A stretch of DNA of 64,000 nt from Gemmatimonadota bacterium (GCA_009841115.1 VXML01000024.1:66249-130248); one strand, 5' to 3'; positions 3,604 to 48,606 are shown, numbered from the stretch's first letter. The notes: generated by a model from the sequence alone, not told the origin. Translations and numbers: made by a program.

Positions 3604-3900
3604 TGAAGTCGGATCTACATCTACTGGGATAGGCGTGGCTCGCACCCCTGCTTACCCCTGCTACATTCAACAGGCCGAGTCGGGCCGTTTCTGTGCATTA
3701 TCATCCTCGTACTGATGAGCGCCATCAACGCTCGAGCGGGTGCGCCTCAGCACTTTGCGACCATCTACGGGTTGAAAGATCGTACGCGTACCAACAGCGG
3801 AAAAGACGGAAAATGCTTGTTGGCCTCGCAAACGCTAATCCCAACTAGGACTGACTGCTACGCACATAAACGCTGCTAGTAGTAGTGGTGAAAGTGGGTA

Positions 3901-6150: not shown

Positions 6151-6227
6151 AGAGTGTTCTGAAGTGCATTGGCACGAGCATTTTATTTATCGAATCAACC
6201 CCCATTCTAACGAGAGGGAGATAAGTC

Positions 6228-15132: not shown

Positions 15133-15323
15133 ACGGAACGAGACGGGCCGATATAGAGCCTGGGGTACGCGTTGCCATCGTGCAGAAGCAGGATCAGCGC
15201 ACGGGGCGGCTGACCGAAGGCGTGGTGCGGGACATTCTGACCAAATCGGCGACGCATCCGCACGGGATTAAGGTACGCTTGGAGACCGGCGAAGTCGGCA
15301 GGGTCAAGCAGGTGCACGGTTAG
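15129..15323 (+). CDS. ywbE: YwbE family protein
   Basis: ADIEPGVRVAIVQKQDQRTGRLTEGVVRDILTKSATHPHGIKVRLETGEVGRVKQV; ATGA overlap with preceding stop. Confidence 0.88.
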   Translation: MNGTRRADIEPGVRVAIVQKQDQRTGRLTEGVVRDILTKSATHPHGIKVRLETGEVGRVKQVHG

Positions 15324-27352: not shown

Positions 27353-27413
27353 TTTTTTTGTGAGTTAGGAGGGCACAGGGTTCGATTCGGAAGGGACAGA
27401 TTTTATAAAAAAG

Positions 27414-30341: not shown

Positions 30342-32065
30342 GACTCGCCTTCTACGATTCGCACAAAGCGCCTTGCCGGTACGGGGCCCACGGTTTGCGA
30401 TTCACCTGAAGGCCAACGAATTAGGATGCGGTCCACCTCTGTCCTGCGGCCGAGGCCGAAGTGCAGTCGCAGATCGTTGTGAGACAGGTAGCTGCTGCCA
30501 CCTCGCACCTCAGCTACTTGCCGCAGATCAGCGGAGAATACAGTGACGCGCGTCCCGATCCCACTGCGATTGCTCCGCGTGCCTTCCACCTCGACAGAAA
30601 TCCAATTGGCGCGGTTGCCGCCGTCGTTTCTGAGCAGGTGCGGGCGCTGGTTATTGTTCGATACGAACAGATCGACATCTCCGTCGTTGTCGTAGTCGGC
30701 CGCGGCTGAGCCTCGTCCTACGCCGGCTGTGAACGCCGTTAGACCGCTCGCCGCGGTCGCGTCGGTGAATGTGCCGTCGCGATTGTTCAGGAAGAGTTGG
30801 TCGTGCTGTGCATAGCGGGGGCCGGCGCTGTCGAGAATCTCGATGTTGGGCTCGACATGGCCGTTGGCGAGGAACAGATCGGGGTATCCGTCATTGTTGA
30901 CGTCGATGAAATCCGTTCCGAAGGTGAGGGTTTGATAGGTCGGCCCTCCCAGTCCGCTCTGCGCGGTGTGGTCTGCGAATTGACCCGCTCCGGCATTGTG
31001 CAGCAGTCGGCAAGGCTCCCACTGGAAGTTGCACACGCCTAGGTCGAGGCGACCGTCGCGATCGTAGTCGGACCAATCGGTGCCCATGCCCGCCTCTGGG
31101 GCACCATCGGGGCTCGTTGCGACGCCGGAGGAGACACCGACCTCGGCGAATCGGTACCCGTCGTTGCGGAACAAGAAATTTGGCTCGTGGTCATTGGCGA
31201 TATAGAGATCGGGGTCGCCGTCATCATCGTAGTCGGCGAATCCCACGCCTAGCTGCCGACCCTCTTCGGTCCAGACTCCTATCGAGTCGGTGATGTCCGT
31301 GAAACGGAAGTCGCCGTCGTTGCGGAACAGAGAACCGGAATCGCCGGGGTAGGCACCAGGGCCACAGTAGATCTGAATCAGTCCACGGTAGCACTCTGGG
31401 AGATCATCTCCGACAATCCGTACGTCGTTGGCGACATACAGATCCAAATCACTGTCGAGATCGATGTCGGCGAAGGCCGTGCTCGTCGATACCCGTGGAT
31501 CACCGGTCCCCGACTGTTCGGTCACGTCTGCAAAGTGGCCGTTGCCTAAGTTTCGGTAGAGTCGGTTGGCACCCCAGTTCGTGACGTAGAGATCCGCGTG
31601 GCCGTCGTTGTCTATATCCCCAACGCCGACCCCCATGCCAAAGCTGGTGTCGGCGACCCCTGCTTCTGCTGCTCTATCGATGAAGGTCCCGTCGGTCTGA
31701 TTCACGAACAGAGCATTGGTGGGTAGATGAGCGGTGAGGACGCCGTGGCTAGCAGCGCTGTTCACGACGTAGAGGTCGGGAAAGCTGTCGCCATTGAAAT
31801 CGGCAAATGCGGCACCCGAGCCATGGGTTTCGGGGTAGTGGTAGGCCCCAGCAGCGCCATTGAAGTGGCGGAATTCGATCCCGGACTCGGCCGCGACCTC
31901 GCTGAATCGAGGGAGGGTAAGAGCCGGTTCCTCATCATCGCTGCAGCCCAACAGAAGGGGCGTTGCTACCAAAGAAATTCGCAGCAGCCGACGGAGTAGA
32001 GAGGCACTATTCGACTCGTTTTTGTCTGCGCAGTTGGATATCTGCTGTGCATTGTAATAGTTCAT
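30326..32065 (-). CDS. CRTAC1 family protein (FG-GAP/VCBS + ASPIC/UnbV)
   Basis: DYDRDGRLDLGVCNFQWEPC, DYDNDGDVDLFVSNNNQRPHLLRNDGGNRANWISVEVEGTRSNRSGIGTRV, GLGRRTEVDRILIRWPSGESQTV. Confidence 0.9.
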   Translation of the reverse strand: MNYYNAQQISNCADKNESNSASLLRRLLRISLVATPLLLGCSDDEEPALTLPRFSEVAAESGIEFRHFNGAAGAYHYPETHGSGAAFADFNGDSFPDLYVVNSAASHGVLTAHLPTNALFVNQTDGTFIDRAAEAGVADTSFGMGVGVGDIDNDGHADLYVTNWGANRLYRNLGNGHFADVTEQSGTGDPRVSTSTAFADIDLDSDLDLYVANDVRIVGDDLPECYRGLIQIYCGPGAYPGDSGSLFRNDGDFRFTDITDSIGVWTEEGRQLGVGFADYDDDGDPDLYIANDHEPNFLFRNDGYRFAEVGVSSGVATSPDGAPEAGMGTDWSDYDRDGRLDLGVCNFQWEPCRLLHNAGAGQFADHTAQSGLGGPTYQTLTFGTDFIDVNNDGYPDLFLANGHVEPNIEILDSAGPRYAQHDQLFLNNRDGTFTDATAASGLTAFTAGVGRGSAAADYDNDGDVDLFVSNNNQRPHLLRNDGGNRANWISVEVEGTRSNRSGIGTRVTVFSADLRQVAEVRGGSSYLSHNDLRLHFGLGRRTEVDRILIRWPSGESQTVGPVPARRFVRIVEGESWTPL

Positions 32066-32363: not shown

Positions 32364-33257
32364 ATGCGCAAGAAAGCAGTTATAGGGACAATAGTCTTCG
32401 GCGCTGTGCTGCTTGCAGGTTTCGCAACACCGGCAGCGGCATACGAAAACTGCAACGGCGTTGGCTATTTTGCCCTGCAGGTGCCCAATCCAGGATCCAT
32501 GAACCCCGACGGCGACGGCAGCGACTGGGGTTGGTTCGATTCGGATTTCATCATTGGTAATGACCAGTTGTGCGACGTGATCGGCGATAGTGAGTTTCCA
32601 GCCCGTAGCGACCTCGACATCGCTCACCACGTCGGCTGGACACCGGAGCCGGACAATCGGCTCTACGTATTCACGCGCGTCGTCGATGACACGCTAAACG
32701 CCGACGTCACCGAGCTGAACGACGGTTGGCACGACGATGACCTCGAGCTGATTTTGGATCCCGACCACGGTGTGTGGAACGAGGCACCTGATGCTCTCCG
32801 CACCGGACATCAGCAGTGGACCTTCCACTACGCTCGTCCCGGTGGTTACCCCCTCGTGTCCTTTTTGCGTTGGAACCAGCCGGCGGAGATGCAGTGGGGT
32901 CCCGAGACGGGTGCTGTTGAGGGGGCCGTTGTGGTCTCTCCAGCGGGTGCCGGGCACTTGGCCACGGACGTGACGGTGAACTACGAAGTTCGCATGGAGG
33001 CCTACGATCCTTACATGCCGGATGGTCGCGATGCGAGCGTCCGCTGGGTCTTTGAAGCCGGCCAGACGATCGGTATGTCCCTGAGTCTCAACGAGGCGGA
33101 TGGCGGAGGCCGATCGCACCAGATCACGACGCACATCCAGAACGGCGGGGCGCATAGCTCGGAATTCTCCTCCGAATTCACCTTGCTAAGCACCGATGAA
33201 TACGCTACTGCCGTTGAGGAAAGTAGCTGGGGCTCAGTAAAGGCGCTGATGCGGTAA
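32364..33257 (+). CDS. Secreted CBM9/DOMON-like protein, paralog B
   Basis: Start after gagaggagatctc; signal peptide ..GFATPAAAYE; DGDGSDWGWFDSDF, DDDLELILDPDHG, C-term SSWGSVKALMR. Confidence 0.65.
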   Translation: MRKKAVIGTIVFGAVLLAGFATPAAAYENCNGVGYFALQVPNPGSMNPDGDGSDWGWFDSDFIIGNDQLCDVIGDSEFPARSDLDIAHHVGWTPEPDNRLYVFTRVVDDTLNADVTELNDGWHDDDLELILDPDHGVWNEAPDALRTGHQQWTFHYARPGGYPLVSFLRWNQPAEMQWGPETGAVEGAVVVSPAGAGHLATDVTVNYEVRMEAYDPYMPDGRDASVRWVFEAGQTIGMSLSLNEADGGGRSHQITTHIQNGGAHSSEFSSEFTLLSTDEYATAVEESSWGSVKALMR

Positions 33258-33284: not shown

Positions 33285-33319
33285 TAAGGAGGGAGGATTG
33301 TCCTCCCTCCTTAACTTTT
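33285..33319 (+). terminator. Hairpin terminator downstream of paralog B
   Basis: taaggagggagga (33285-33297) ttg tcctccctcctta (33301-33313): perfect 13-bp stem, 3-nt loop, then acttttc. Confidence 0.85.
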
Positions 33320-33354: not shown

Positions 33355-34077
33355 TTGAGAGCGCTTTGTAGTTGCCTATTAATTTTGGTTGCGTTCGGAT
33401 GTGGGCGCTATTTCCCAGGGCCTCTCCAGCCCAAGCCTGGGTCCGAGCAGGGCGAACACATGGTGGTCCACGACGACGGATCAGTGGCCTATGTCTTCGA
33501 GAGGCTCGATATCGCGATTCGACCGATGACGGACGCGGAGCTCAACCGCAGTTTCGCCACAAGGTCGGCCGACGGACCACTGTCTACTAATCCCTTCACA
33601 TTCGGCGATTGGACTCCCCCAGGCGAGTCATTTACGCCTCAGCGATTTACCGTATTCCTCCTTCGGGTCAAGAACTATGCGTATCCGAAGGTCAAGATCG
33701 ATCCGTCTAGGATCGAGTTGCGATCCGCCAGCAAGCGTTCCTACAAGCCCCTGACATTTCTCGAAATCAGTGAGTACTACCGAGCGTATGCGTTGGCTTG
33801 GGCCGGAAACTACTATGCGCGCATGCGCGAGCGCGAGGATCTGTTGCGTCTCCACATGTATGCCGACAAGATGATCTTCAGTGGCCAGGAGCACGAAGGT
33901 TTTATTGTATTCCCACCCATGCCTCCAGATGTGACCGAGTTGACCGTCCATGTCAACGACGTTGCCGTTCGTTTCAACTACGCCGATGAGCCCGTGGAGA
34001 CCGTAAATCTGACCTACGGATTCCAACGCGAGGTCTTCAGGGGATACCAGCCACCCGCCACCGTCTCGGCACGCTGA
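33355..34077 (+). CDS. Hypothetical lipoprotein
   Basis: TTG start after gcggagagg; LLILVAFGC lipobox; coding confirmed by operon spacing. Track start at 33298 lies in the terminator loop. Confidence 0.6.
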   Translation: MRALCSCLLILVAFGCGRYFPGPLQPKPGSEQGEHMVVHDDGSVAYVFERLDIAIRPMTDAELNRSFATRSADGPLSTNPFTFGDWTPPGESFTPQRFTVFLLRVKNYAYPKVKIDPSRIELRSASKRSYKPLTFLEISEYYRAYALAWAGNYYARMREREDLLRLHMYADKMIFSGQEHEGFIVFPPMPPDVTELTVHVNDVAVRFNYADEPVETVNLTYGFQREVFRGYQPPATVSAR

Positions 34078-34078
34078 C

Positions 34079-35965
34079 GTGCCCTTCACAGCCAAACGCG
34101 CGGGTGTAGCCGTCCCGCTTGTCCTGACGTTCCTCCTGAGCATTGATGCGGGCGGCCAGATCGAGACCGTGCGCATTGGACAGGGCGGCGACACTTGGCA
34201 GAGCGTGGAGCTAGTGGCTGCAGGAGCGCAGGTCACGGCCGACTCGCTGCTACCGGCAGGCTTCAAGGCCAACGAGAATATCGTCATCGCCGTTCGCTGG
34301 ACGGATGTAGGAACGGGCCCGGACGAGTTTATACCCGAGGGCGGAGCGCGGGTGTGGGCGCGCGTTGCCGACGGTCAGCCAAATGACGTTCTCGTCGACG
34401 GCAGGTCAAGCACATCCACTGGGGAGCGATTTCAGATTCCTGGTCAGTCTCAGGACGGCCGAATCTTCGTCTTCGATTTAGGTGCCTCGTTTCCCGTCGA
34501 GCGGATTGCCTTCTTTCCCAACCCAGCAGATAGCACCGCCTTCCTGCGGGCTTACGAGATCAAAGTCAGCGACGGGCGCTCTTTTGGCACGGACGAGCGC
34601 CCGATTTACGAGACCCTGGCACGCGTCGAGATTTCCAACGAAGTTCGGACGGAGGCTGAGTTTCCACGGCAGTTGGTCCGATATATCCGCTTGGAAACGC
34701 TGGAACCGAATCCCTTCGACATTGCCGAGATAGAGGTGTTCGGTAGGGGATTTGTCCCCCGTGCTCAGTACGTCTCCAATTTTATTGACTTTGGCGGAGG
34801 AGGTGTGCGCAACTTTGGTCGCCTAACAGTTCACGCGACTCGCGTGTCTACTGAGCCCGATGTGGTTTCGGACGATCCAGTGCAGGCGGTGTTCCAAGTT
34901 CGGGCGGGCAGCGACACTTCGCCTGAGTCCTATTTCCAAATCGATCTCGAAACCGGCAGTGAGACGGAGATCTCAGAGGAGGCGTACCAGAACCTCATCG
35001 ACCGCGAGCGCACGGCGAGATACGATGCAGAAAACTGGAGTGCGTGGTCGAATCCGGTGGCGATCGATTCGACGGGTTCCTACGAACTCAGTCTCGATTT
35101 TTTGCCGATGCCGAGGCCCTTCTTCCAGTTCAGATTCTTCTTTGAGGGCACTGCGACCGACGTGATCCGGATTGATGCGCTGGAGTTCACCCACTCGCCA
35201 CCCCTCGCCCAAGGGACGCGAGCCGAGATCGCCCTCGTCGGCGATCCTTTTCCGCCGGCAGGCGTGGCTACCGTCGCTACGGGACAGCCGGCGACCTTGG
35301 AGTACGCCTTGACTGCGGAGTTGGTCGGCGACGAGGGATTCGATGGGTTGCGCATCGCAACGCCGGGCGCTGCTCAGTTGGAATCAGTGTTGATCGGCGA
35401 CGACCGAGAGCAAGTGGTCGTCGACAGCGTCGTTGTTGACGACAGCGGCATGTCTCTTTTCTTCCCGAGCCGCCGGATCACGGCAGAGAGCAACGCCACG
35501 CTCTTCGTGAGGTTCACAGCAACGCCCTTGCGATACACGACCCTGTTTCAGGGTTGGCTCTTAGATTCAGTTGGCGCGGTTCCGCAGCGGGTTGCTCCCG
35601 GTGATGCCACCAACCTGCTCGGCACGAATTCCGTCCTCGTCTTCGGTTCCCTTGGGGACCCTCTTGGCCGATTTGATTTGGGTGCTGGAGTCGTAACGCC
35701 TAATGGGGACGGGCGAAACGACGACTTGGCGCTGCAGTACGACCTCGTATTCCTCATCGAACCCGCGCAAGTAGACATTACAGTACACGATCTCTCGGGT
35801 CGGCTCGTTCACACCCTCCAGCAAGAGGAGCAAGCGGCAGGCAGCTACTTAGCTACATGGACCGAGGCCCACGAACTGCCTCCGGGGCACTATATCGTCC
35901 GACTGCGCGTCGAAACGCAGACCAAGACGTTTGAGCGTCTCCGGATCGTGGCGGTTTCCTACTGA
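34079..35965 (+). CDS. Secreted discoidin-like protein with TPNGDGRNDD (FlgD-like/CHU_C-like) C-terminal domain
   Basis: Signal peptide; F5/8-like FVFDLGASFPVERIAFFPNP.. RYIRLETLEPNPFDIAEIEVFG; C-term VVTPNGDGRNDDLALQYDLVF...VDITVHDLSGRLVHTL. Confidence 0.65.
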   Translation: MPFTAKRAGVAVPLVLTFLLSIDAGGQIETVRIGQGGDTWQSVELVAAGAQVTADSLLPAGFKANENIVIAVRWTDVGTGPDEFIPEGGARVWARVADGQPNDVLVDGRSSTSTGERFQIPGQSQDGRIFVFDLGASFPVERIAFFPNPADSTAFLRAYEIKVSDGRSFGTDERPIYETLARVEISNEVRTEAEFPRQLVRYIRLETLEPNPFDIAEIEVFGRGFVPRAQYVSNFIDFGGGGVRNFGRLTVHATRVSTEPDVVSDDPVQAVFQVRAGSDTSPESYFQIDLETGSETEISEEAYQNLIDRERTARYDAENWSAWSNPVAIDSTGSYELSLDFLPMPRPFFQFRFFFEGTATDVIRIDALEFTHSPPLAQGTRAEIALVGDPFPPAGVATVATGQPATLEYALTAELVGDEGFDGLRIATPGAAQLESVLIGDDREQVVVDSVVVDDSGMSLFFPSRRITAESNATLFVRFTATPLRYTTLFQGWLLDSVGAVPQRVAPGDATNLLGTNSVLVFGSLGDPLGRFDLGAGVVTPNGDGRNDDLALQYDLVFLIEPAQVDITVHDLSGRLVHTLQQEEQAAGSYLATWTEAHELPPGHYIVRLRVETQTKTFERLRIVAVSY

Positions 35966-35989
35966 GGAAAGTAGGCAAGAGGAGGATTT

Positions 35990-38059
35990 ATGCGCACGCG
36001 AACGATACTTACCACAACGATCCTGCTAGTCGCGACAGTGGTTGCAGGCTACGGTCAGCGCCGCGTCGTGCAGATCGGCGGGACAGCGGGGGATTTCTCG
36101 TGGTCACAGGTGCGTCAGAAGGCCGTCGCCCTCGATGATACGACCGCTCCGGGTGCCTTGCAGCCCAGAGAGCTGCGGCCATGGGAAAACATCATGGTCG
36201 GTCCCGGGGCCTTCGCCAATATATTCGGTCTATCTTGGGCGGAGGGACAGACAACAGGCAAGGCCTTCGGTTTCCAGGCCGGCGTTGACCCGCGCTTCTG
36301 GCACGGTGGCTACAGCCGCGAGGAGGCCGTGGTCATCGATGGCGATCCCGAGACAGCAATCTCGCTGCGGCAGCTAATCGGCGAGGGGCCGGTACAAGTC
36401 TTCAACCAGATTCTGCGCCTGCAGGAAGAAGTTTGGACCTTTGATCTGGTTTTGGAGACGCCGATCAACCGGATCCTGTTTTTTCCTCGGCAATCGGGCG
36501 TTGATAAGCGCGGCATTCCCAACAAGCAGGGATCGCCGCGGGCGTATCGTCTCTCGATACAGAACGAGGCGGAAGAATTCCTACTCGAAGGCTCCGAGCC
36601 GATCCCGAAGCGGACGCTTGCCACCCTCATCGAGGAAACCAAGTCCAACACGAAGAGCCGAGTCGATGTCAGCTTTCCGCTGCAGCCGGCCAGATTCATC
36701 CGACTCGATCTGAGTTTGGCGGACCAGTTCTACAGCATGGCCGAATTCCAGGTCTATGGCGAGGGCGTCCCGACCAATGTAAACTACGTTTCTACCGCCA
36801 TTCCATTCGACGAGCCCGTCAACTTCGGCGAGATCACCTACTCCTTCCGCGCGCTGCGACGAGACCGGGAAGCGGACGTGCTCGTCGAAGACCCCGAAGG
36901 CGATGCCCGACTACTCATAGAAACGCGTTCCGGCACTGACGACACACCGCTGGCTTACTACGTCGTAGATGACTTCGGGCGCGACAAGGAGGCGACCGAG
37001 TCGGAATGGCAGCGCGCCTCGCTACCCCGACGGGAGAGTCTCTCCGTCCGCTATCCCAATCAGCGCAGTGTCGTCCTCGACGACGAGACCAACTGGTCAC
37101 CGTGGTCTTCGCCCTATCGCTCATCTGGTCAGTTGAACCGATCCCCGGACGGTCGTCAGTATTTGCAGTTCCGGGCGACGTTCTTGACGGACGATGTGCT
37201 GTCCATCGGTCGTCTAGATTCACTACAGTTTGAGATTTCTCCACTGCTCGCCTCGTCGCTCATGGGTGAGGTTTCCCTAGCAGGTGCTGCTTCGATGGGC
37301 CTGACGACTGAGGCGCAGCCAGCGGAATTCCCCGTTGGGGAGCGACGTCAGCTACACTTTGACATCGCGGCGGACTTCTCTAGCGATGCACAGGGATTTG
37401 ATGCCGTGCGGCTGACGGTCCCCTTTGGCACTCGCTTTGAGGGGCTGAGGATGGGCGATGCAGACCTCGGCACGGTGGTTCCCGACAGCGTGTGGCCTGG
37501 GGACGGGGTCGCCATCGACGGCGAGCTTTTCATCTCCTTCGCCTCCAATCGGGTGTCACGAGACAATGATATTCCCGTCCGTATCGATCTCGAGTCCTCC
37601 CTTTTTACCTCTTCCACGATCTTCGCAGGGGAGGTCATCGATTCTGCCAGTGCCAACCTGCCCCAGTCGGTGGACGGGGGGAATGCCCGGGACGATGTCC
37701 CCACCAACAGTCTGCAGGTCTTCTCGCGCGATGCGAGGACGACCGTTCTCGATGGGGTCCGCCTCATGCAGCCGGCTCTGACACCGAATGGGGACCAGGT
37801 GAACGACGAAATCTACGTCGAGTTTAGCGTCCTCTTTGTCGATGAAGCAGATGTGACCGTAAAGGTGTACGATGTCGCTGGACGCTACATTGCGATTCTA
37901 GACGCTGAGAATCGGGGCCGAACGGCCCAGCAGGTGTCTTGGGACGGTTTCGATGATGATCGCAACCTAGTCCCGCCCGGCCTATATCTGCTTGTGGTCG
38001 AAGTAAATACCCAAAGGGAAATCGCACGGCAGCTACTGACAGTGCCCGTCGTCTACTAG
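35990..38059 (+). CDS. Secreted discoidin-like protein with TPNGDQVND C-terminal domain
   Basis: Same architecture: RFIRLDLSLADQFYSMAEFQVYG; LTPNGDQVNDEIYVEFSVLFVDEADVTVKVYDVAGRYIAIL. Confidence 0.65.
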   Translation: MRTRTILTTTILLVATVVAGYGQRRVVQIGGTAGDFSWSQVRQKAVALDDTTAPGALQPRELRPWENIMVGPGAFANIFGLSWAEGQTTGKAFGFQAGVDPRFWHGGYSREEAVVIDGDPETAISLRQLIGEGPVQVFNQILRLQEEVWTFDLVLETPINRILFFPRQSGVDKRGIPNKQGSPRAYRLSIQNEAEEFLLEGSEPIPKRTLATLIEETKSNTKSRVDVSFPLQPARFIRLDLSLADQFYSMAEFQVYGEGVPTNVNYVSTAIPFDEPVNFGEITYSFRALRRDREADVLVEDPEGDARLLIETRSGTDDTPLAYYVVDDFGRDKEATESEWQRASLPRRESLSVRYPNQRSVVLDDETNWSPWSSPYRSSGQLNRSPDGRQYLQFRATFLTDDVLSIGRLDSLQFEISPLLASSLMGEVSLAGAASMGLTTEAQPAEFPVGERRQLHFDIAADFSSDAQGFDAVRLTVPFGTRFEGLRMGDADLGTVVPDSVWPGDGVAIDGELFISFASNRVSRDNDIPVRIDLESSLFTSSTIFAGEVIDSASANLPQSVDGGNARDDVPTNSLQVFSRDARTTVLDGVRLMQPALTPNGDQVNDEIYVEFSVLFVDEADVTVKVYDVAGRYIAILDAENRGRTAQQVSWDGFDDDRNLVPPGLYLLVVEVNTQREIARQLLTVPVVY

Positions 38060-38070
38060 GGGTTAAGACT

Positions 38071-40416
38071 ATGGCAAAAACAAGCTTGTGCATCATCGCC
38101 ATGACCGCATGGCTGTTGTCCAGTCGCGCTGCGGCCGATGAAATTCGCTTTGAGAGTCTGAGAGACTGGCAGCAGTGGACGAGCCCGATTGGGGCCATTC
38201 AGTTGCGGCAAGACGGGCAAGTCGAGTTGGGGTGGTACGGGACGGACACCGATCCGATGGATAACATGTCCCTGTTCTCACATCCCACCCGGAAAAGTGG
38301 CGAGGTCTTCGGTGGCCTGACGGCACACTCGAACAACCGCAACGCTCGGTTTGTCTTCGATAATGACCACGACACTTGGTGGCAGCCCGATGCCGGTGCC
38401 GATCCCGACAATGCGTGGATACACATCGATTTGGGCCGCCTCGTCCTGCTGAAGGAGATCCGCTTGGTCTTTCCCGACACCCTCGACGTCCGTCCCTTCC
38501 GGGATTTCTCGGTTTTTGTCAGCGAAGGTTCGACGGTGTCTCCGTCCGAGGATGTCTGGCGTTTCCAGCGCGTCTTCACGACCACCGAGCCCAACAAGTT
38601 GGGTGAAATCATCATTCCCTTGTCGATTGAGGATTTTGGGGACGCTGCGACCGGCGAGAACATGGTGCTGGGCAAGACGCTGGACTTCAAGCCCGTGCAC
38701 TACATCCGCTTCCTGCCCCACGAGGTTGGGGAAGGCGCGGCGCTGGCGGAGATTGAGGTGACCGCGATCGGCGATAATATAGCATTGACGACCTTTGATC
38801 GGGGGGGGACGATCCGATCGGGACGCCCAAAAGTGGAAGAGCTGCGCGATGGGACCGTGGATAATGCATGGCCCTTGATTGCCAATAACCTCAATCGCTT
38901 CTGGCAGGATGGCGGGATGTGGTTTGAGTGGGATCTGGGTGCCCTCTTCCACGTCAGCCGGATCGTGCTCTACCAGTGGCCTCCCAATCATCTAGGTCGA
39001 ACGACATTCGGAATCGGCGGTACCAACAACGGTTACAATCTGGAGATGACGGATGGGACGCCGATCGCCCGAGACGATGCATTCCGCAGTCCCTTTGACT
39101 ACACGCGCGTTTCGCTCGTCGACAACAGCCGGGCACCGGTGCGCTACGTCTTCGACCATCATCTAGAAGATCGAGTTGGCCGCTATCTGTTTTGGAACCA
39201 CTTCGATGTCCAAGACAGAAGGGTTGGCTATATCATGCTGGAAGTATTCATCTATTCCGCTGGCTACCCGGCACAAGCGGCATTGACATCTGACTTCATC
39301 GACCTCGGGGGGGCCAAGAGCATTACGGGGATTTCGTGGGATGCCGACACCCCGCCGGGGACCCGAATCACTGTGCAGACTCGAACGGGCAATGAACTCG
39401 ACGCGGAGCAATTTTTCTTCAAGAAGAACGGTGAGCCGGTCACGGAGGCGCAGTACAACAAGCTGCCCAAAGTGGTCCGAGGTGAGATCGTCGAAGTGCC
39501 CAAGGAGGGTGCGGACTGGAGTGGTTGGAGTGAGCCGCACCTTTCGTCGGGCCAGTCCTTTCGGTCGCCCACCCCTAGACGGCTATTGCGAATGCGGGTG
39601 AGTCTGGAGACCGAAGATCCTAAAATCACTCCGGTCCTCAACGCAGTGACTCTTCACTTCGACGAAGCACTGGTGCAAAAAGGCGTTGAGGCTGCGATCT
39701 ATCCACGGGAAGCGATCGCTGGCGAGTGGCAGGATTTTCGCTACGTGCTGCAACCGGTCTTCACAGTCAGAGATCAGGGCTTTGACCGCGTAATTCTGCC
39801 CGTGCCAGGACAAGTGCGGAACGTGTCGCTGCGCATCAATGGTGAAGAGGTCGAAGGGGCTGTCGAGTCCACAGTGGACACGCTCATCATCGCCATGCCT
39901 CGCCGCTCGCTGCGAGACTCGGTGGAGGTGATGTTCACGGCGCGACCGCTGAACAATCCCACCCGCTTCCTCGCATCCGTGGCGAACTCGGCACAACCGG
40001 ATAATCGGCAAGAGGTGAGGCCGCTAGAAGTCGACGACGACGGCGATGGCGAGTTCGATCGCACGGACCGAGAGGCCCTCTTCGTCTTCTTGCCGAACAC
40101 AACTTCAGGAGGTACTATCCGCAACCTCGTTGCATCGAGCCGCGTCATCACGCCCAACGGCGACGCTATCAACGACGATTTGCGCATTACCTTCGATCTA
40201 TTTCGCACCAAAGTCGCTGCTGAGCTACGGCTCTACAGCTTGTCAGGGCACCTGCTCCAGGTCGTCGCCGGCCAGCGAGGGGAGACACAGCAGCTAGTGT
40301 GGGATGGGATGGTGGATGATCGGCCGGCGCCACCCGGGATCTATGTCTGCCGCATAGAGGTGCCGACAGAAGCAGGGCAGGAGGCCAAAACCCTGCTGGT
40401 AAGTGTAGCCTACTAG
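38071..40416 (+). CDS. Secreted discoidin-like protein with TPNGDAIND C-terminal domain
   Basis: WIHIDLGRLVLLKEIRLVFPDTLDVRPFRDFSVFVS; VITPNGDAINDDLRITFDLFRTKVAAELRLYSLSGHLLQVV. Confidence 0.65.
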   Translation: MAKTSLCIIAMTAWLLSSRAAADEIRFESLRDWQQWTSPIGAIQLRQDGQVELGWYGTDTDPMDNMSLFSHPTRKSGEVFGGLTAHSNNRNARFVFDNDHDTWWQPDAGADPDNAWIHIDLGRLVLLKEIRLVFPDTLDVRPFRDFSVFVSEGSTVSPSEDVWRFQRVFTTTEPNKLGEIIIPLSIEDFGDAATGENMVLGKTLDFKPVHYIRFLPHEVGEGAALAEIEVTAIGDNIALTTFDRGGTIRSGRPKVEELRDGTVDNAWPLIANNLNRFWQDGGMWFEWDLGALFHVSRIVLYQWPPNHLGRTTFGIGGTNNGYNLEMTDGTPIARDDAFRSPFDYTRVSLVDNSRAPVRYVFDHHLEDRVGRYLFWNHFDVQDRRVGYIMLEVFIYSAGYPAQAALTSDFIDLGGAKSITGISWDADTPPGTRITVQTRTGNELDAEQFFFKKNGEPVTEAQYNKLPKVVRGEIVEVPKEGADWSGWSEPHLSSGQSFRSPTPRRLLRMRVSLETEDPKITPVLNAVTLHFDEALVQKGVEAAIYPREAIAGEWQDFRYVLQPVFTVRDQGFDRVILPVPGQVRNVSLRINGEEVEGAVESTVDTLIIAMPRRSLRDSVEVMFTARPLNNPTRFLASVANSAQPDNRQEVRPLEVDDDGDGEFDRTDREALFVFLPNTTSGGTIRNLVASSRVITPNGDAINDDLRITFDLFRTKVAAELRLYSLSGHLLQVVAGQRGETQQLVWDGMVDDRPAPPGIYVCRIEVPTEAGQEAKTLLVSVAY

Positions 40417-40474
40417 TTAGAAAGGTTGATCTGATGACGATACGCGGCGGGAAACTAATACGGGAGAGCTGGAC

Positions 40475-43114
40475 ATGAAGTGCAAATGGGTCGGCTCCAT
40501 CCTAGCCGTCTTGCTACTGCAAGGGACGCCAGGTGGAGCAGTCGAAATTGGTCTGTTCAATCCCTACATCACGGACGGAGCCCGAATCAGTCCTGAGACA
40601 CTGGTTCCAACTTTGCGGAAGTGGTATTTGCCCCAAGCGCTCTACTCACTATACGGCTGGCAGGGAAGTGGTTACACCAACTATGCTCGGGACCAGTACC
40701 GGCGATATGTGAGAACCGAGCTCGAAGGCGACCGCTACTACGACCTGTACGGCAATTACTTCACCAAGGGCTGGAATATCTACAACTTCACGAATGAGTA
40801 TCCGCGAGATTTTGGGAGCGGAATTTGGAAGGATCCGAACTTCAGCCAGTGGTTCAATCGTCTCATCGTGGTCTCTGGGGCCAAGGGGCAGTTCCACACC
40901 TCTCTAACCATCGGCGAGGGCATTCGCACCACGATGACCCCGCTCACCTTCTCCAAACCGCTGTTCGACGGTCTGCAGTGGGACTTCCAGACCGATAAAT
41001 ACGGAGTAAGCATCTTGGCGGCGCGGGCAGATTCGCCCGGGCGCGTGGCCGTCGCTGTTGACCAAGGAGCAGCGCGGCAAACGACCTTCACTCAGTTGCT
41101 CGGCATGAACGGAAGCGTCGGCGTCGGCGATTTCGCGACATTGGGTGGAACGTATCTGACGAGCTTTCACCAAAACTCGGCACTCTCCCTCGACGAAAAT
41201 TCGCTGCGTGGCGTCCTCGGCGGTCGCCTGAATGCGGGAAATGTCCAGCGGCTGATCGTGCGTCTGTCAGACGACTCACCAGAGGATGGCGTCGGCGGCG
41301 CACTGCTGCTCCGCGAGCGCATCTTCATCAACGGCGTTGAGCATCCCGAGATCGACCCGATCATTGAAGGGGGTGTGGCGCGCGAAGGCCTGCTAGAGGC
41401 CAGTGGTTCCAATACGGTCACCCTGACGTATAACATTGAGACTGATTTCCGGCCGGGCCCCGGTGAGGAGATCACTGATTTCCGGGAGATCGAGCGCATC
41501 GAAGTAGGGCTGGTCGTGGCCAACGACTACCTCGTAGAAGTCGCATCGAACTTGCAGACCAACGCGACGCTGGAGCCCGCCTTCCTGCCCGTCGCCCAAG
41601 CAGAAGGCAACGTCACTGATGCCTCCAACCAGCGATTTATCCGCTTTCAGTACGGGATCCCGTCGAGCAACGAACTGCGAGGAGTGAATCTGGCGATTAG
41701 CGACGTGGGGGGCTTCAACCTCCGATCTGAGTACGTGAGCAATCGGCGCAACCGACGGTTTCCCAACCAAACCATCCGCAGCAACCAAGCCCTCGCTCAC
41801 GACGCGTCTGAGGCTTATTACGCCACGGCATCGCAGATCACGTACCCCTTTTTCGGCTACGGAGAGTTCTTCAGCGTCGAGCCTGGGTACTCGACGTCTA
41901 TGTTCATTCCCGACTCGCAAGGCTTCATCGATTACGAAGACGAAAAGAATTATCTCTACGAGCTTATCGACGATAACGACGACCAAGATCGCTTCCCAGA
42001 CTGGCAGCGCCGCGCTGTGAATCTGAGTGCCTTGTTTCCAAATCAGAATCAGTTCCCCGACCGGGAGGTGTTTCCGGGTCTCGACGAGAACCAGGACTTC
42101 ATCTCCGACTTCAATCAGAACCAGAACAACCAGCCTGATTACAGCGAGCCGTTCTTCCGCTACCACGTCGATCCACCCGAATTCCTTTTCGGTACGGACA
42201 TGAACAACAATACCATCATCGACCGTTTTGAGAACGACACGGAAGCGGATTATCCGTACAAGCGAGACAGCAAGGGATACAACCTCTACGCTGGTGTCGA
42301 ACTGATGCCGAACAGTCGCCTCATGGTTGGACGCTCGCGGGTGGAACAGCACTCCAGCGACCGCCGGGCAGCCTCCACATACGGTCTGCTGACGCTGAAG
42401 AAGGAATATCCGCAGCGCAGTCTGTCGATCCAGTTGATGGAGTTCGTCCGCATCGTCAAGGACGATATCCCCGACAATCTCATCCAGTGGGTGCAGCCAG
42501 CCTTCTCTCCCGGTACGATGCAGGACTTCAGCGATCCGTTGATCGCACAGGATACCTTTATCAACACCCTCTACCTGCAGGTAGATTGGAATCCGTTTGT
42601 TTCGACGCAGACGAAGCTCAAGTACGACGCCTACAATCAGCAGGGAGATGCGGCGGAGGGAACGCAAAATGAGCGATTCTTGGGCCTAATCAACAAGGCC
42701 GATCGTCAATTCTGGGCAACGCAGACTGTGCTTTTGTGGCCGCAGTGGAAGCAGCGGTTTTCTTCCCGTACGCCGACCAATCCACGTGAGCGCAGCACGC
42801 GCGATCTGGCCGAACTATTCTTTTTTCTAGTCAGCTATAGCATCTCCCCGCAGATGACTCTCGGCCTTGGCAGCGAGTACGAGCTTTTCAATAACCTGAA
42901 GAGCCGCCCCGAGGGTGGTGCCGTTGACTACCAAGACGACTTTAGTCGATTGACTTTGGCGTCGCAGTTTTCCAATCAGGCGGCGTATCTGGGCTACGAG
43001 TTGACCGCGAACATCGGCATACGGTGGACGCGACGCAGCGTTCACGGAGAAGATGCCGACACGAACACGATGATTTTCGTAGATGTGTTTGCGGGTCTCG
43101 GAACCGATCGATGA
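40475..43114 (+). CDS. Large predicted outer-membrane beta-barrel protein
   Basis: Signal peptide; no internal TM helices; C-terminal half with alternating amphipathic strands (YLQVDWNPFVSTQTKLKYDAYNQQ.., LTLASQFSNQAAYLGYELTANIGIRWTRR); acidic NDNDDQDRFPD/ DMNNNTIIDRFENDTEADY loops. Confidence 0.5.
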   Translation: MKCKWVGSILAVLLLQGTPGGAVEIGLFNPYITDGARISPETLVPTLRKWYLPQALYSLYGWQGSGYTNYARDQYRRYVRTELEGDRYYDLYGNYFTKGWNIYNFTNEYPRDFGSGIWKDPNFSQWFNRLIVVSGAKGQFHTSLTIGEGIRTTMTPLTFSKPLFDGLQWDFQTDKYGVSILAARADSPGRVAVAVDQGAARQTTFTQLLGMNGSVGVGDFATLGGTYLTSFHQNSALSLDENSLRGVLGGRLNAGNVQRLIVRLSDDSPEDGVGGALLLRERIFINGVEHPEIDPIIEGGVAREGLLEASGSNTVTLTYNIETDFRPGPGEEITDFREIERIEVGLVVANDYLVEVASNLQTNATLEPAFLPVAQAEGNVTDASNQRFIRFQYGIPSSNELRGVNLAISDVGGFNLRSEYVSNRRNRRFPNQTIRSNQALAHDASEAYYATASQITYPFFGYGEFFSVEPGYSTSMFIPDSQGFIDYEDEKNYLYELIDDNDDQDRFPDWQRRAVNLSALFPNQNQFPDREVFPGLDENQDFISDFNQNQNNQPDYSEPFFRYHVDPPEFLFGTDMNNNTIIDRFENDTEADYPYKRDSKGYNLYAGVELMPNSRLMVGRSRVEQHSSDRRAASTYGLLTLKKEYPQRSLSIQLMEFVRIVKDDIPDNLIQWVQPAFSPGTMQDFSDPLIAQDTFINTLYLQVDWNPFVSTQTKLKYDAYNQQGDAAEGTQNERFLGLINKADRQFWATQTVLLWPQWKQRFSSRTPTNPRERSTRDLAELFFFLVSYSISPQMTLGLGSEYELFNNLKSRPEGGAVDYQDDFSRLTLASQFSNQAAYLGYELTANIGIRWTRRSVHGEDADTNTMIFVDVFAGLGTDR

Positions 43115-44718
43115 TGAGGATATCGTCGCGCGCTGTTATTTTGCTAACAGCGGGATTGCTGGCCTGCGAACGGACCGAACAATACGATCCAAAGCCTGTA
43201 GTCGTCGCCGTCATCGACCGGGATACGATTGATGTCGAGGCATACGACGAGATGGCGACGACACTTCTCGCCTCTTCTCATCGCGGCCAAGATCCCACCA
43301 GTCTCGACACGAGACGCCAACTGCTGGATGCGATGATAGATAGACAGTTGCTGGCGCTGGAGGGACAACGCAGGAAGCTGGACGCAGCGCCTAAAATCGC
43401 AACTGCCCTTGAGCAGCGTCAGAGCAAACTCCTCTGGCGCGCTCTGTTCAACGCGGTCGCGGTCGACGCGGGGCTCGATACGTCAGGCATCCAGACCTTC
43501 GCCATTGAAGAGGGGTTTACCGAAGAGGTGCTGCTCCAGCACGTGATGCTGGCGAATGAGGCCGATGCGTGGAGTGTTCTCGAGGCTCTCGATGCGGGAG
43601 AGCCGATGGATGTGCTCGCGGTCGAACGTTCGACACACCACGAGACAGGGGGCTTGGGGGGGTACTTTAGCTACATGTCTGTATCCCAAGTGCTCCCGGA
43701 GATCAGAGAGCAGATTCTGTCGCTGGAGTCTGGTCAAACCTACCCGGAACCTCTGACTTCCCGCTACGGGATTCACGTGTTTCGCCTGATTGACCGTCGC
43801 CCCGCCGACATGGTGAGATGGTGGGATGCTGTGCTCAAGGAGTTCCGCGTACGCGAGAGGAGCCGCGTCTTCGAGTCCTTTGCCGACAGCTTGGCGGATG
43901 CGCATGGCTTAGTCTGTGAGTCTTTGGTCGACGATCGCCCAGCGTCGGATCCTCTCTGTACTTGGACGGATGGCCAGCTCTTGTCATCCGACGTCAACTT
44001 GGCCGCCGCCGGGGAGGATCTGCAGAGCTGGTTGCGCACGAAGGCCCGGGATCGGCTGGTCGTCGAGGAGGCCAAGCGTCGTGGCATGGACCGCGAACTC
44101 GTGGTGCGCGATCAGGTCGAAGCGCTGAGGGAAGAAATGATGATCGACAGCCTCCAGCGGGTTGTCGTCGGTCGCATTGAGATAGCGGATGCCGAAAAAC
44201 GGGCGTACTACGAGAAACACCCTGAGTTGTATGGTCCGCGTCCGACGGTTCGCGTCGATGAGGTCCTCGTCGCTGACCGCACTCTGGCGCAACGACTCCG
44301 TGGCCAAGCAGAGGTGGGGGTTCCCATCGACTCCTTGGCACGGGTACACAGCATTCGCGAGGTGACTAAGAAAAGAGGCGGGTCGATGTGGCTCGTCACG
44401 AGAGACAATCCGCTCCTAGGGGCTCTCGCGCCCCTCGCTCTCGACTCGGAAGTGGGTGCTCTCCTAGGGCCTCTCGAAGTACCTGGCGGGTATTCCGTTT
44501 TGCGCATCGCCGAAAAGAGTGAGACACCGACGCGCCCCTATGAGGCAGTGGAACGGAATATTGAAGTGATTCTCCGTCTGCGCGCTGAGCATCAGAAGAT
44601 GGACTCGTTGCTGGTCCAACTTCGCGTGGACTTCGCCGACGAGGTCGTGGTCCATGCAGATGCGCTGGGATCTGTACTAACCGATTGGGGGGATCGCGAA
44701 GATGATGCCCAAAATTGA
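43111..44718 (+). CDS. Parvulin-type peptidyl-prolyl isomerase lipoprotein (SurA/PrsA-like)
   Basis: Lipobox LLTAGLLAC; GGLGGYFSYMSVSQVLPEIREQILSLESGQTYPEPLTSRYGIHVFRLIDRR (PPIC); second partial PPIC-like region. Start overlaps previous stop. Confidence 0.75.
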   Translation: MMRISSRAVILLTAGLLACERTEQYDPKPVVVAVIDRDTIDVEAYDEMATTLLASSHRGQDPTSLDTRRQLLDAMIDRQLLALEGQRRKLDAAPKIATALEQRQSKLLWRALFNAVAVDAGLDTSGIQTFAIEEGFTEEVLLQHVMLANEADAWSVLEALDAGEPMDVLAVERSTHHETGGLGGYFSYMSVSQVLPEIREQILSLESGQTYPEPLTSRYGIHVFRLIDRRPADMVRWWDAVLKEFRVRERSRVFESFADSLADAHGLVCESLVDDRPASDPLCTWTDGQLLSSDVNLAAAGEDLQSWLRTKARDRLVVEEAKRRGMDRELVVRDQVEALREEMMIDSLQRVVVGRIEIADAEKRAYYEKHPELYGPRPTVRVDEVLVADRTLAQRLRGQAEVGVPIDSLARVHSIREVTKKRGGSMWLVTRDNPLLGALAPLALDSEVGALLGPLEVPGGYSVLRIAEKSETPTRPYEAVERNIEVILRLRAEHQKMDSLLVQLRVDFADEVVVHADALGSVLTDWGDREDDAQN

Positions 44719-44742
44719 AGAGTACTTGGATCTGCAAGTGTC

Positions 44743-45963
44743 ATGCCCGCCGTTTTCATCTTCTTCCTACTGAGCGCCTGCGAGGGGCCTGTGCCCGAGC
44801 AACAGGCGGTTCGACAGCAGGAAGCCGCGCGAGCCCTCCTCGACAGCGCACTTGAGCACTCAGCTCGTGGTGAATCTGCCGAAGCTATTCTACTGCTGCA
44901 ACGCGCGGTGCAGCTAGATCCACAGGATCCGGTCATCCACTACGATCTCGGCAACAATCTGGCGCGGCAGGGCCGTCTCGACCAAGCCGCGGCGTCGTAC
45001 CAACAAGCGATATCCCTCAAGCCCGAGTACGCGGCAGCCCATTACAACCTAGCCTCCGTGCGCTCCGCAGCGGGACGGCACGAGGAGGCGGAAGAACTGA
45101 TGGCGCGAGCGATTGAGGCCGATAGCGGCTATCAGCCCGCCCACAAGGCTTTGGCGCAACTGCGGGAACGGCGAGGCGACTACGACGGGGCTATCGAAGC
45201 CCTGGAGATTGCGGTGGGGATTCGTCCCGACGACGTGGAGGCGCGCAACCTGCTGGGCTACCTGCTGGGGAAGCAGGGGCGACGGGACGCGGCCGAAGTG
45301 GTTCTGCAGAGAACGCTGCAGATTGACTCGACCCACGCGGACACTTGGGCGCACTTAGGTGCGCTACAACTCGCCGCCAAGGATTTCGCGAGTGCGCGTC
45401 GGCATCTCGAGAGGGCCATTCAGTTCAATGCGCACCACACGAAGGCGCACTTCGATCTGGCTAACTGTCTGATGCGGCTGGGGCAGAAGGAGAGTGGGCG
45501 AAAGGTGATGCGTCGGTTCGAGATGCTGAGATCGATCGACACGGATATTGTCAAGTACCGCGAGGCGATCCGCCACGACCCCACCGATCCGGCTCTCTAT
45601 CGAGAATTGGCTCGCCTGTATTCGAGACGGGGTGAGACGGACAAAGCGATTCAGCTCTATCGACAAGCTATCTCACGAGATGTCGGATTGGCCGCTGCCC
45701 ACAACAACTTGGGAAACCTCCTGCTGCAACAGAATCGACCCGAAGAGGCTGCCCGGGCCTATCGAGCCGCGTTGCGCGCTGACTCTACCTACGCCTTCGC
45801 TCACAATGGGATCGGCAATGTCAGGCTACTCGCGGGGAATAGGATAGGGGCCATGGAGGCCTTCGAGCGCGCAGTCGAACTAGACTCCTCGAACCAAACG
45901 TTCGTCGATAACCTCAAATCCGTACAAATACTACAGCACGCGGAGGAATCGCATGATCGCTGA
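44743..45963 (+). CDS. TPR-repeat lipoprotein
   Basis: FLLSAC lipobox; IHYDLGNNLARQGRLDQAAASYQQAISLKPEYAAAHYNLAS etc. Confidence 0.88.
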   Translation: MPAVFIFFLLSACEGPVPEQQAVRQQEAARALLDSALEHSARGESAEAILLLQRAVQLDPQDPVIHYDLGNNLARQGRLDQAAASYQQAISLKPEYAAAHYNLASVRSAAGRHEEAEELMARAIEADSGYQPAHKALAQLRERRGDYDGAIEALEIAVGIRPDDVEARNLLGYLLGKQGRRDAAEVVLQRTLQIDSTHADTWAHLGALQLAAKDFASARRHLERAIQFNAHHTKAHFDLANCLMRLGQKESGRKVMRRFEMLRSIDTDIVKYREAIRHDPTDPALYRELARLYSRRGETDKAIQLYRQAISRDVGLAAAHNNLGNLLLQQNRPEEAARAYRAALRADSTYAFAHNGIGNVRLLAGNRIGAMEAFERAVELDSSNQTFVDNLKSVQILQHAEESHDR

Positions 45964-46041: not shown

Positions 46042-47064
46042 ATGAAGATCAGACCTATCGCCTTAGTCACCGTGATCTTGGCGCTGGTCGCGAGCAACGG
46101 ATGTGGGCCGCAGACTGCTGAATCTCCCGAAACCAGCCCAGCGCCGCTGGCCGAGGAGGAGGTCCGGTTGGGGTTTCTGGTGAAAATGCCGGAGGAACTG
46201 TGGTTTCAGAACGAATGGAAATTCGCCCAGCAGTGCGCCGATCAGTACGGGTTTGAACTGATCAAAATCGGCGTTCCAGACGGGGAGAAACTCCTCGCGG
46301 CTATTGATGTCCTCGCGGCCAAGGGAGCACAGGGCTTTGTCGTTTGCACACCCGACGTACGGCTGGGTCCAGCCGTGCTGGCCAAAGCCGGCAGCCACAA
46401 CATGAAAGTGTTCACAGTAGATGATCAGTTCGTCGGTGCGGACGGCGAGTTCATGGACGTTCCTTACATGGGCATTTCAGCCGTGGAAATCGGTCGCCAA
46501 GTGGGACGAGAACTCCACAAGGAGTTCACCAACCGCGGCTGGCCGTTGGAGGAAACGGGTGCGCTCGGAATTACGTTCGACGAACTCGACACTGCGCGCG
46601 ACCGCACCGATGGGACGATCGAAACGCTGATCGAGGCTGGCTTCCCACGGGAGCGCATCTACTTGGGGGCGGAGAAAACCACCGACATTCCAGGAGCGTT
46701 CGATGCGGCTAACATCGTTCTGACCAAGTACCCAGCGATCAAACGCTGGCTGGTGTTCTCGCTTAATGACGAAGGGGTTCTCGGCGCGGTGCGCGCCTTG
46801 GAAGGGCGTGGGTTTGGTGCAGCGGAGACCATTGGTATTGGCATTGGTGCTGGTACAGGGCTGACCGAGTTTGAGAAGGAGGAACCGACGGGGTATTTCG
46901 CAACCTGCATGATCAGCCCCCGCCGTCATGGGTACGAGACGACGGAACTGCTCTACAAATGGGTTAAAGAGGGCGTCGCTCCGCCTGCTGACACGCGCAC
47001 GGCAGGCGTTATGGCCTACCGCGATGACTACAAAGAAGTCCAGATAAAGCTGGGTCTCGATTAG
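46042..47064 (+). CDS. araF: Sugar ABC transporter substrate-binding lipoprotein, AraF-like
   Basis: RLGFLVKMPEELWFQNEWKFAQQCADQYGFELIKIGVPDGEKLLAAIDVLAAKGAQGFVVCTPDVRLG resembles arabinose-binding protein. Confidence 0.75.
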   Translation: MKIRPIALVTVILALVASNGCGPQTAESPETSPAPLAEEEVRLGFLVKMPEELWFQNEWKFAQQCADQYGFELIKIGVPDGEKLLAAIDVLAAKGAQGFVVCTPDVRLGPAVLAKAGSHNMKVFTVDDQFVGADGEFMDVPYMGISAVEIGRQVGRELHKEFTNRGWPLEETGALGITFDELDTARDRTDGTIETLIEAGFPRERIYLGAEKTTDIPGAFDAANIVLTKYPAIKRWLVFSLNDEGVLGAVRALEGRGFGAAETIGIGIGAGTGLTEFEKEEPTGYFATCMISPRRHGYETTELLYKWVKEGVAPPADTRTAGVMAYRDDYKEVQIKLGLD

Positions 47065-47073
47065 GTCTCGGTC

Positions 47074-48582
47074 TTGGAATCCTCGTCTCCCCCGGTAGTT
47101 GAGTTCCACGGCGTCTCAAAGACGTTTCCAGGAGTCCGCGCTTTAGAGGATGTCTCGTTTGCGGTCCGCCGAGGTGAAGTCCGCGCCCTGATCGGCGAGA
47201 ACGGGGCGGGAAAGTCCACGCTGCTGAAGATTTTGAGTGGCGTCCACCTGCCCGATGCTGGAAGCGTGGTTTTGGATGGGCGCGAACGAGTTTTTTATTC
47301 GACTGCGGAAGCCTTGGACGCCGGCGTCGCCGTCATCCATCAGGAACTCCAACTCGTCCCTGAAATGTCTGTGGCCGAAAACCTCTATCTCGGCCATCTC
47401 CCCTCAAGGCTAGGAGTCGTGGATCGCCAGCGTCTGCACGAAGCCGCGCATCGCGACTTGGAACGTTTGGGTGAAGCCATTGATCCCGCCGTCAAAGTCG
47501 GTCGCCTGCCCATCGCGCAACGGCAGATGGTCGAAATCGCCAAAGCCCTGACTCGCGGCGCACAGGTGTTGGCCTTAGACGAACCCACGAGCAGTCTTTC
47601 TGCCCGAGAAGTAGAACGCCTTTTTGCAACCGTGGCGGAACTCAAGCGCAACGGCTGTGCCGTGCTCTACGTCAGCCATCGCATGGACGAACTGTTTAGC
47701 GTGTGTGACTCTGCGACAGTCCTCCGGGATGGCCACCATGTTGAGACGTTTCTCGCCTTGGAAGGAGTCTCCCACGACCTGCTGGTCAACCGCATGGTCG
47801 GCCGCGATATCGAAGATGTTTTCGATTATCACTCCAGCACGCAGAAAGAGACTGCTTTAGAAGTTGTCGAGGTGGAGGGTGCGGGACTCTCAAGACCGGT
47901 CTCTTTCTCCGTCGCGAAAGGAGAGGTCGTCGGCCTATTTGGATTGATCGGCGCGGGCCGCAGCGAGTTGTTGCGCTTGGTGTTTGGCGCGGAACCCATG
48001 CAGGCTGGCGTGGTAAAAGTTTGCGATCGGCAAGTCCCGATCTCTTCCCCAAGCGATTCGATCCGCTCCGGCGTGGCCTTTTGCCCAGAAGACCGCAAAA
48101 AGGACGGCATTGTACCTACGGCGTCCGTGCTTGAGAACCTGAACTTGGTCGCCCGTGGTCGCATCGCCCGGCTGGGGCTTGTCGTCAACGATGCTTGGGA
48201 GAAACGCAACGCCCACGATCAGATTGAACGACTTGGGATTCGCACGCCGTCGGTGGCGCAGAAGATCGTCAACTTGTCTGGCGGAAATCAGCAAAAAACC
48301 ATTCTCGCACGGTGGCTGTCTGAGGACGTCAATGTGCTGCTGTTGGACGAGCCTACGCGCGGCGTAGATGTTGGTGCGAAGAGCGAGATCTACGCCATCA
48401 TCCGCGATCTGGCCGACCGTGGGGTGGGGGTGGTGTTGGCATCCAGCGATCTCCCGGAAGCCCTTGGCGTGGCGGATCGCCTGCTGGTGATGCGCGAAGG
48501 TGCTATCGTAGCTTCTATCGCCCGTGGCGAAGCCGATGAGGAAGAGGTCCTGCGATTGGCGCTACCGGCGTCTCCTGCTTGA
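47074..48582 (+). CDS. araG: Sugar ABC transporter ATP-binding protein (AraG/RbsA type, two NBDs)
   Basis: GENGAGKSTLLKILSGVHLPDAGSV; LSGGNQQKTILARWLSEDVNVLLLDEPTRGVDVGAK. Confidence 0.85.
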   Translation: MESSSPPVVEFHGVSKTFPGVRALEDVSFAVRRGEVRALIGENGAGKSTLLKILSGVHLPDAGSVVLDGRERVFYSTAEALDAGVAVIHQELQLVPEMSVAENLYLGHLPSRLGVVDRQRLHEAAHRDLERLGEAIDPAVKVGRLPIAQRQMVEIAKALTRGAQVLALDEPTSSLSAREVERLFATVAELKRNGCAVLYVSHRMDELFSVCDSATVLRDGHHVETFLALEGVSHDLLVNRMVGRDIEDVFDYHSSTQKETALEVVEVEGAGLSRPVSFSVAKGEVVGLFGLIGAGRSELLRLVFGAEPMQAGVVKVCDRQVPISSPSDSIRSGVAFCPEDRKKDGIVPTASVLENLNLVARGRIARLGLVVNDAWEKRNAHDQIERLGIRTPSVAQKIVNLSGGNQQKTILARWLSEDVNVLLLDEPTRGVDVGAKSEIYAIIRDLADRGVGVVLASSDLPEALGVADRLLVMREGAIVASIARGEADEEEVLRLALPASPA

Positions 48583-48606
48583 ACCTTGCTGACGGAGAAA
48601 AGAACG

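Follow-up and report, generated by a model that had tools for sequence, protein, structure and literature searches.

The gene run and its neighbors

The window analyzed here is a stretch of 64,000 nucleotides from a genome labeled Gemmatimonadota bacterium (GCA_009841115.1, VXML01000024.1:66249-130248). Positions 33355 to 45963 carry seven tightly packed, co-directional plus-strand genes for a lipoprotein, three discoidin-like proteins, a predicted outer-membrane β-barrel, a parvulin and a tetratricopeptide repeat (TPR) protein. We found that these genes form the core of a dedicated module that has duplicated together with its barrel gene many times in the same genome, and its anatomy and co-duplication strongly support that its products function together at the outer membrane.

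All open reading frames (ORFs) of the run were confirmed, in agreement with a sequence-only reading of the window that had pointed out the close spacing; the gaps within the run measure −4 to 58 bp. The first gene, lip (33355 to 34077), starts with TTG and encodes a conserved lipoprotein whose lipobox cysteine (Cys16) is invariant among 15 homologs. It is followed after 1 bp by the first of three discoidin paralogs, dA (34079 to 35965), and, after gaps of 24 and 11 bp, by dB (35990 to 38059) and dC (38071 to 40416). The barrel gene (40475 to 43114) begins 58 bp further on and overlaps the next gene by 4 bp (ATGA at 43111 to 43114), the start codon at 43111 lying within the barrel stop. This next gene (43111 to 44718) encodes a double-parvulin lipoprotein resembling SurA and PrsA (Rotamase_2, 1.8e-17; Rotamase, 5e-10), and the last one (44743 to 45963; gap of 24 bp) encodes a TPR lipoprotein (TPR_2, 1.1e-49); the same reading had named a SurA-like chaperone and a TPR lipoprotein here.

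While the seven genes are conserved as a unit, the unit proved to be larger than had been proposed. Upstream on the plus strand lies a gene for a secreted protein resembling CBM9/DOMON domains (32364 to 33257; CBM9_1, 4.5e-4, below the cut-off), whose ORF opens at 32268 with a likely ATG start at 32364. Divergent from it, on the minus strand, are a gene for a CRTAC1-type FG-GAP propeller lipoprotein with a UnbV_ASPIC domain (30326 to 32065; FG-GAP_3, 2.5e-48; UnbV_ASPIC, 9e-22) and the adjoining gene of its TPR partner protein (28782 to 30341), which matched the TPR profile of the module with 520 bits. A terminator-like 13-bp hairpin (33285 to 33313, plus strand) separates the CBM9-like gene from the run; it was found by pattern only, and the number of such sites did not exceed that in shuffled sequences.

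Downstream, 78 bp after the TPR lipoprotein gene, the plus strand continues with a sugar ATP-binding cassette (ABC) importer of the AraFGH type (46042 to 49575) composed of an AraF-like binding protein, an ABC ATPase and an AraH permease (AraH equivalog, 491 bits against a cut-off of 378; Peripla_BP_1, 1.5e-39). Elsewhere in the window, a second TPR/CRTAC1/CBM9-like group without a barrel is located at the left end (1144 to 7172), and an SGSH_C-type sulfatase and a DUF5107 protein (25841 to 28772) adjoin the divergent TPR/CRTAC1 pair. A single 770-amino-acid ORF (54710 to 57022) joins an SBP_bac_1 domain (residues 52 to 342) to a BPD_transp_1 permease (residues 561 to 753); in the relatives G003 and G006, SBP_bac_1 likewise occurs in long frames (774 and 807 amino acids). 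Two DUF6785/DUF6784 proteins are encoded at 15320 to 17218 and 23870 to 25837. Since this family is also found inside two barrel modules (loci L038 and L047), it may represent an inner-membrane transporter serving them.

Predicted structure of the barrel and its relatives

The sequence-only reading had named 40475 to 43114 as a candidate outer-membrane barrel gene, and two AlphaFold2 models together with Foldseek searches supported this. The models reached a predicted local distance difference test (pLDDT) score of 72 with 38 aligned sequences and of 82, at a predicted TM score (pTM) of 0.82, with 84. Twenty-four long strands were counted, joined alternately by turns of 2 to 8 residues and by mostly longer loops, with both termini on the periplasmic side; an even strand number, short periplasmic turns and long outer loops are the hallmarks of outer-membrane β-barrels. 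Two inserts are placed on the outer side by the predicted topology: a β-sandwich (residues 235 to 394, after strand 7) and a segment rich in aspartate and asparagine (D/N; residues 469 to 598). Conservation within the protein is highest in the latter, where 35 of 130 columns are at least 90% identical among 84 homologs, and its DxNxNxxxDxxE-like loops suggest, by their sequence, calcium binding.

By sequence, the barrel is related to nothing in Pfam, NCBIfam or the PDB, the last of which was searched with the barrel profile without any significant match, and no Pfam family was consistently matched across 38 barrel homologs. Plug and TonB receptor matches were absent from the barrel and its 37 homologs. 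Profile-profile comparison by hhalign did not detect homology to SprA (probability of 1.2% over 21 columns) or to the TonB-dependent receptors of the genomes (0.2%), with SprA and receptor profiles built from four sequences each, some of them partial. SprA/Sov has in common with the module barrel that it is a large outer-membrane barrel of the Fibrobacteres-Chlorobi-Bacteroidetes (FCB) group that is present, once, in the same genomes.

For both models, the top Foldseek matches were all outer-membrane barrels, which identifies the general fold class only. The best one was MtrB (6r2q_B; E value of 1.4e-9), a large outer-membrane barrel of the MtrCAB complex, but this match covered the query with a TM score normalized to query length (TMq) of 0.27, which none of the listed matches exceeded. 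Rank and E value of MtrB would be in line with a transmembrane electron conduit of the MtrAB type. This explanation is contradicted by the absence of heme-binding partners, as the CXXCH motif occurs in none of about 640 module proteins, and together with the low TMq this makes it very improbable. Ushers (the FimD/PapC kind) were also among the matches (TMq of about 0.2) and share with the module barrel 24 strands and a β-sandwich insert. In the module, however, this insert follows strand 7 and lies on the outer side by the predicted topology, neither a PapD-type chaperone nor a pilin is encoded, and the 38 scanned homologs lack usher as well as Omp85 Pfam matches.

Co-location, duplication and distribution of the module

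The genomes compared here are largely metagenome assembled, and the main statistics were obtained from the single-contig genome G006; G000, G003 and G006 are congeneric and thus not independent. Gene calls in the loci came from a simple ORF caller, with counts at the edges of the 20-kb loci representing lower bounds. Barrels were counted with a short profile of the D/N segment, which could be scored in full, because a full-length barrel search scored just 14 to 15 candidates per genome. With this profile, 51 barrels were found in the genome of the window, and two relatives assembled as single contigs have 41 and 47. The 41 barrels of G006 are distributed over 27 loci, and the module, with two to three discoidin genes, recurs in about 27 to 30 loci per genome. 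The operon is real, and it is one of about as many paralogous loci in its own genome, part of a many-fold co-duplication of the entire module that the sequence-only reading could not see.

In G006, a discoidin gene with the characteristic C-terminal domain (CTD) was located within 10 kb of 40 of the 41 barrels. Conversely, 77 of the 106 discoidin-CTD genes were found no more than 10 kb from a barrel, compared to a mean of 10.8 after circular shifting; none of 5,000 shifts reached 77. We further compared 28 barrel loci with 40 control regions picked away from barrels in the same genome. Parvulin (19/28 versus 1/40; p = 3e-9), CBM9-like (16/28 versus 0/40; p = 2e-8) and lipoprotein genes (8/28 versus 0/40; p = 4e-4) were all enriched at barrels, and matches to the TPR profile (16/28 versus 6/40) and CRTAC1 genes (7/28 versus 1/40) followed the same pattern. 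The p values are uncorrected for multiple testing; the main effects lie far below any such threshold, which is not the case for the transporter effect described below. In the genome of the window, at least one discoidin gene was present in 30 of 30 loci examined.

Between loci, gene order and strand vary, while the gene set is largely kept. The order CBM9-like gene, lip, two discoidin genes and barrel gene is retained in small genomes of the families f5, f8 and f9 (for example, loci L122, L123 and L125 to L128). Across loci, pairwise distances between barrels correlated with those between their partners, with Mantel r values of 0.94 for the lipoprotein, 0.71 for the CBM9-like protein, 0.59 for the parvulin (0.82 to 0.85 within subfamily 1) and 0.47 for CRTAC1. 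These correlations indicate that the modules duplicate as units. Discoidin-CTD genes are common and were present in 10 of the 40 control regions, as a chance neighborhood of frequent surface genes without functional linkage would have it. The circular-shift test, the control regions, the distance correlations and the conserved gene order nevertheless all reject such a neighborhood, and we consider its probability negligible.

Within the uncultured phylum Latescibacterota, to which the genome of the window belongs, the barrel was detected in 40 of 65 genomes, and these 40 are also the ones in which the lipoprotein was found. The barrel is present in 26 of 26 genomes of the family of the window, in f5 (with the exception of one incomplete genome), in a diverged form in f6, and in f8, f9 and f10, whereas it was absent from f7 and from three further families of that class, represented by 22 genomes. 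Barrels 95% and 93% identical to that of the window are located on contigs labeled Latescibacterota/Latescibacteria. A collection-wide scan returned three loci, two of them named Latescibacteria(ota) and the third labeled Gemmatimonadetes; it used exact 8-residue patterns only and is insensitive for presence outside the phylum. The sequence-only reading had named failure of the barrel prediction and lack of co-occurrence in other genomes as the results that would speak against it; the barrel was supported, and the homologs do co-occur.

Two barrel subfamilies deserve mention. A deeply diverged one (about 25% identical; L109, L110, L148 to L150 and L111 to L116) often forms tandem pairs or triplets, is accompanied by diverged lipoprotein and discoidin genes, and is the sole form seen in f6. 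Another one (L091 to L101) is often seen as two neighboring barrel genes that differ in type, a hint at heteromeric pairs. Further genes were noted beside individual modules. In L133 (14609 to 18407), a gene pair for dynamin-like GTPases lies downstream of a barrel-pair module. Related proteins of 1,406 to 1,582 amino acids are encoded after the modules of L041 (13415 to 17632) and L049 (13279 to 18027), the first of which contains M28 peptidase and FtsX permease domains.

Predicted export of the discoidin proteins and a possible role in uptake

The three paralogs had been described in the sequence-only reading as sharing F5/8-like domains and CTDs that act as sorting signals. Individual domain matches above the curated cut-offs were obtained for dA with TIGR04183 (29.1 bits; cut-off of 23), for dB with CHU_C (29.1; cut-off of 27) and FlgD_ig (27.3; cut-off of 27), and for dC with F5_F8_type_C_2 (29.5; cut-off of 27.8). 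The discoidin domain of dA (F5_F8, 6e-5) and the CTD of dC remained below their cut-offs, and dB has no F5/8 match of its own; here, a common architecture is assigned because the paralogy of the three proteins is clear. A consensus was drawn from 97 paralogs, which were genes of suitable length that matched the profile in the fetched loci, including orthologs in relatives. In it, a leader at the N terminus precedes a discoidin-like region, a domain containing WSxWS and a C-terminal domain of the form TPNGDGxND...IYDLxGR...WDGRD. The CTDs matched CHU_C in 58 of 64 scanned paralogs (E ≤ 1e-3) and FlgD_ig likewise in 58 of 64.

CTDs of the CHU_C, FlgD-like and Por_Secre_tail kinds are those of type A/B cargo of the type IX secretion system (T9SS), and the proposed function as sorting signals is supported to this extent. 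SprA_N was found above the cut-off in 13 of 13 genomes, in nearly all of them in a single frame of about 2,100 amino acids. Given that the genome encodes SprA, T9SS export of the discoidin proteins is plausible from their sequences. In contrast to other T9SS cargo, their genes share co-duplicating operons with those of a barrel and a lipoprotein of their own; no T9SS cargo family is known to have such a partner set.

These observations bear on the dedicated secretion apparatus that the sequence-only reading had seen in the run, in which barrel, parvulin and TPR lipoproteins would export or assemble the discoidin proteins of their own module. The 4-bp overlap of the parvulin and barrel genes, the co-occurrence and correlated distances of the two families and the equally 24-stranded ushers among the Foldseek matches fit such a pore. 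However, since the T9SS of the genome can explain the export of CTD proteins, a second apparatus is not supported, and neither SprA homology nor usher or Omp85 matches nor the TM scores favor one. We therefore regard a secretion or assembly pore as improbable.

Our favored explanation, to which we assign a probability of just under one half (about 0.48), is that the module constitutes a lineage-specific, T9SS-fed surface complex for capture and uptake that is analogous but not homologous to SusCD. After export by the T9SS, the discoidin proteins, together with the lipoprotein, would be held at the cell surface by the two conserved inserts on the outer face of the barrel and would capture a ligand, probably a sugar-like one. 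The ligand would then cross the barrel and be handed to an importer in the inner membrane, for example AraFGH, while the parvulin and TPR lipoproteins would aid assembly. Each paralogous module might serve a different ligand, as do the SusCD pairs of Bacteroidota. The physical complex and the uptake through the barrel are the inferred parts of this explanation.

The AraFGH-type importer behind the run speaks for uptake, and in two loci (L052 and L053), the barrel gene runs directly into an SBP_bac_1-type gene and permease genes. In G006, 4 of 14 SBP_bac_1 proteins have a barrel no more than 10 kb away, where 1.5 would be expected (p of about 0.05), and permeases were found in 4 of 28 barrel loci versus 0 of 40 controls (p = 0.025). 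Enolase-superfamily enzymes, Gfo/Idh proteins, an FGGY kinase, a sugar-binding regulator and a Y_Y_Y/sigma-54 regulator are scattered among the neighbors of the modules, and the extracellular loops of the barrel paralogs vary in length while the turns hardly do, which is consistent with uptake, as is the near absence of SusD described below. Beside one module (L051, 12827 to 15037), Reg_prop/Y_Y_Y sensor domains are fused to a sigma-54 activator, an arrangement that recalls the hybrid sensors of Bacteroidota glycan loci.

As in SusCD/RagAB, a large outer-membrane barrel is combined with putative surface ligand-binding proteins in many paralogous loci, some of them beside sugar transport and regulation genes. 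Unlike SusCD, the module has no TonB plug and no sulfatase enrichment; its barrel has about 24 strands instead of 22, and it includes a dedicated double parvulin as well as discoidin partners whose CTDs are of the T9SS type. A SusD/RagB partner, which together with the plug defines SusCD systems, is also lacking: SusD is nearly absent from the genomes (G003 and G006 have none, and G000 gave a single match that was weak and partial), and none was found in the module.

Several observations weigh against uptake. The association with ABC importers is of borderline significance and comes from two closely related genomes that do not count as independent. In many loci no transporter is seen, and no energizing mechanism is apparent because the TonB plug is absent. 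None of 35 sulfatases of G006 is encoded within 10 kb of a barrel (3.6 expected), which suggests, as far as sulfatases go, that the modules are not classic glycan-degradation loci; a classic sulfated-glycan utilization locus was rejected on these grounds, although in the window itself a sulfatase gene lies some 13 kb upstream of the barrel. Moreover, discoidin and CBM9 domains are also found in adhesins and enzymes. The avoidance by sulfatases, the loci without transporters and the many discoidin paralogs would suit a surface coat or adhesion system as well, in which the barrel anchors T9SS-secreted discoidin adhesins or coat proteins for attachment to particles or hosts, or for surface variation, and transports nothing. 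For an anchor, however, a 24-stranded barrel with a full partner set appears elaborate; some modules lead straight into ABC importers, and the partner sets are intact across distant families. We consider a coat or adhesion role unlikely, if still worth weighing against capture and uptake.

A wider claim would be that the module is a new class of outer-membrane machine: a family of plug-less barrels of about 24 strands, unrelated to solved structures, that carries T9SS-exported discoidin subunits on calcium-loop-like inserts and, with 40 to 50 copies per genome, provides much of Latescibacterota with their principal interface at the outer membrane. We regard this as conceivable but doubtful. 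In agreement with the suggestion that the system may be undescribed, no account of it was found in the open-access literature (preprints were not covered).

Latescibacterota are widespread, uncultured degraders. A barrel family of 51 copies with dedicated partners would be a substantial component of their cell surface that has so far gone without annotation, where a 2015 study of Latescibacteria had ascribed the passage of sugars over the outer membrane to "non-specific" porins (PMC4454575). The module would represent a second, independent solution to the problem solved by SusCD, as well as a new kind of T9SS client, and it provides concrete genes for transcriptome, proteome and structure work.

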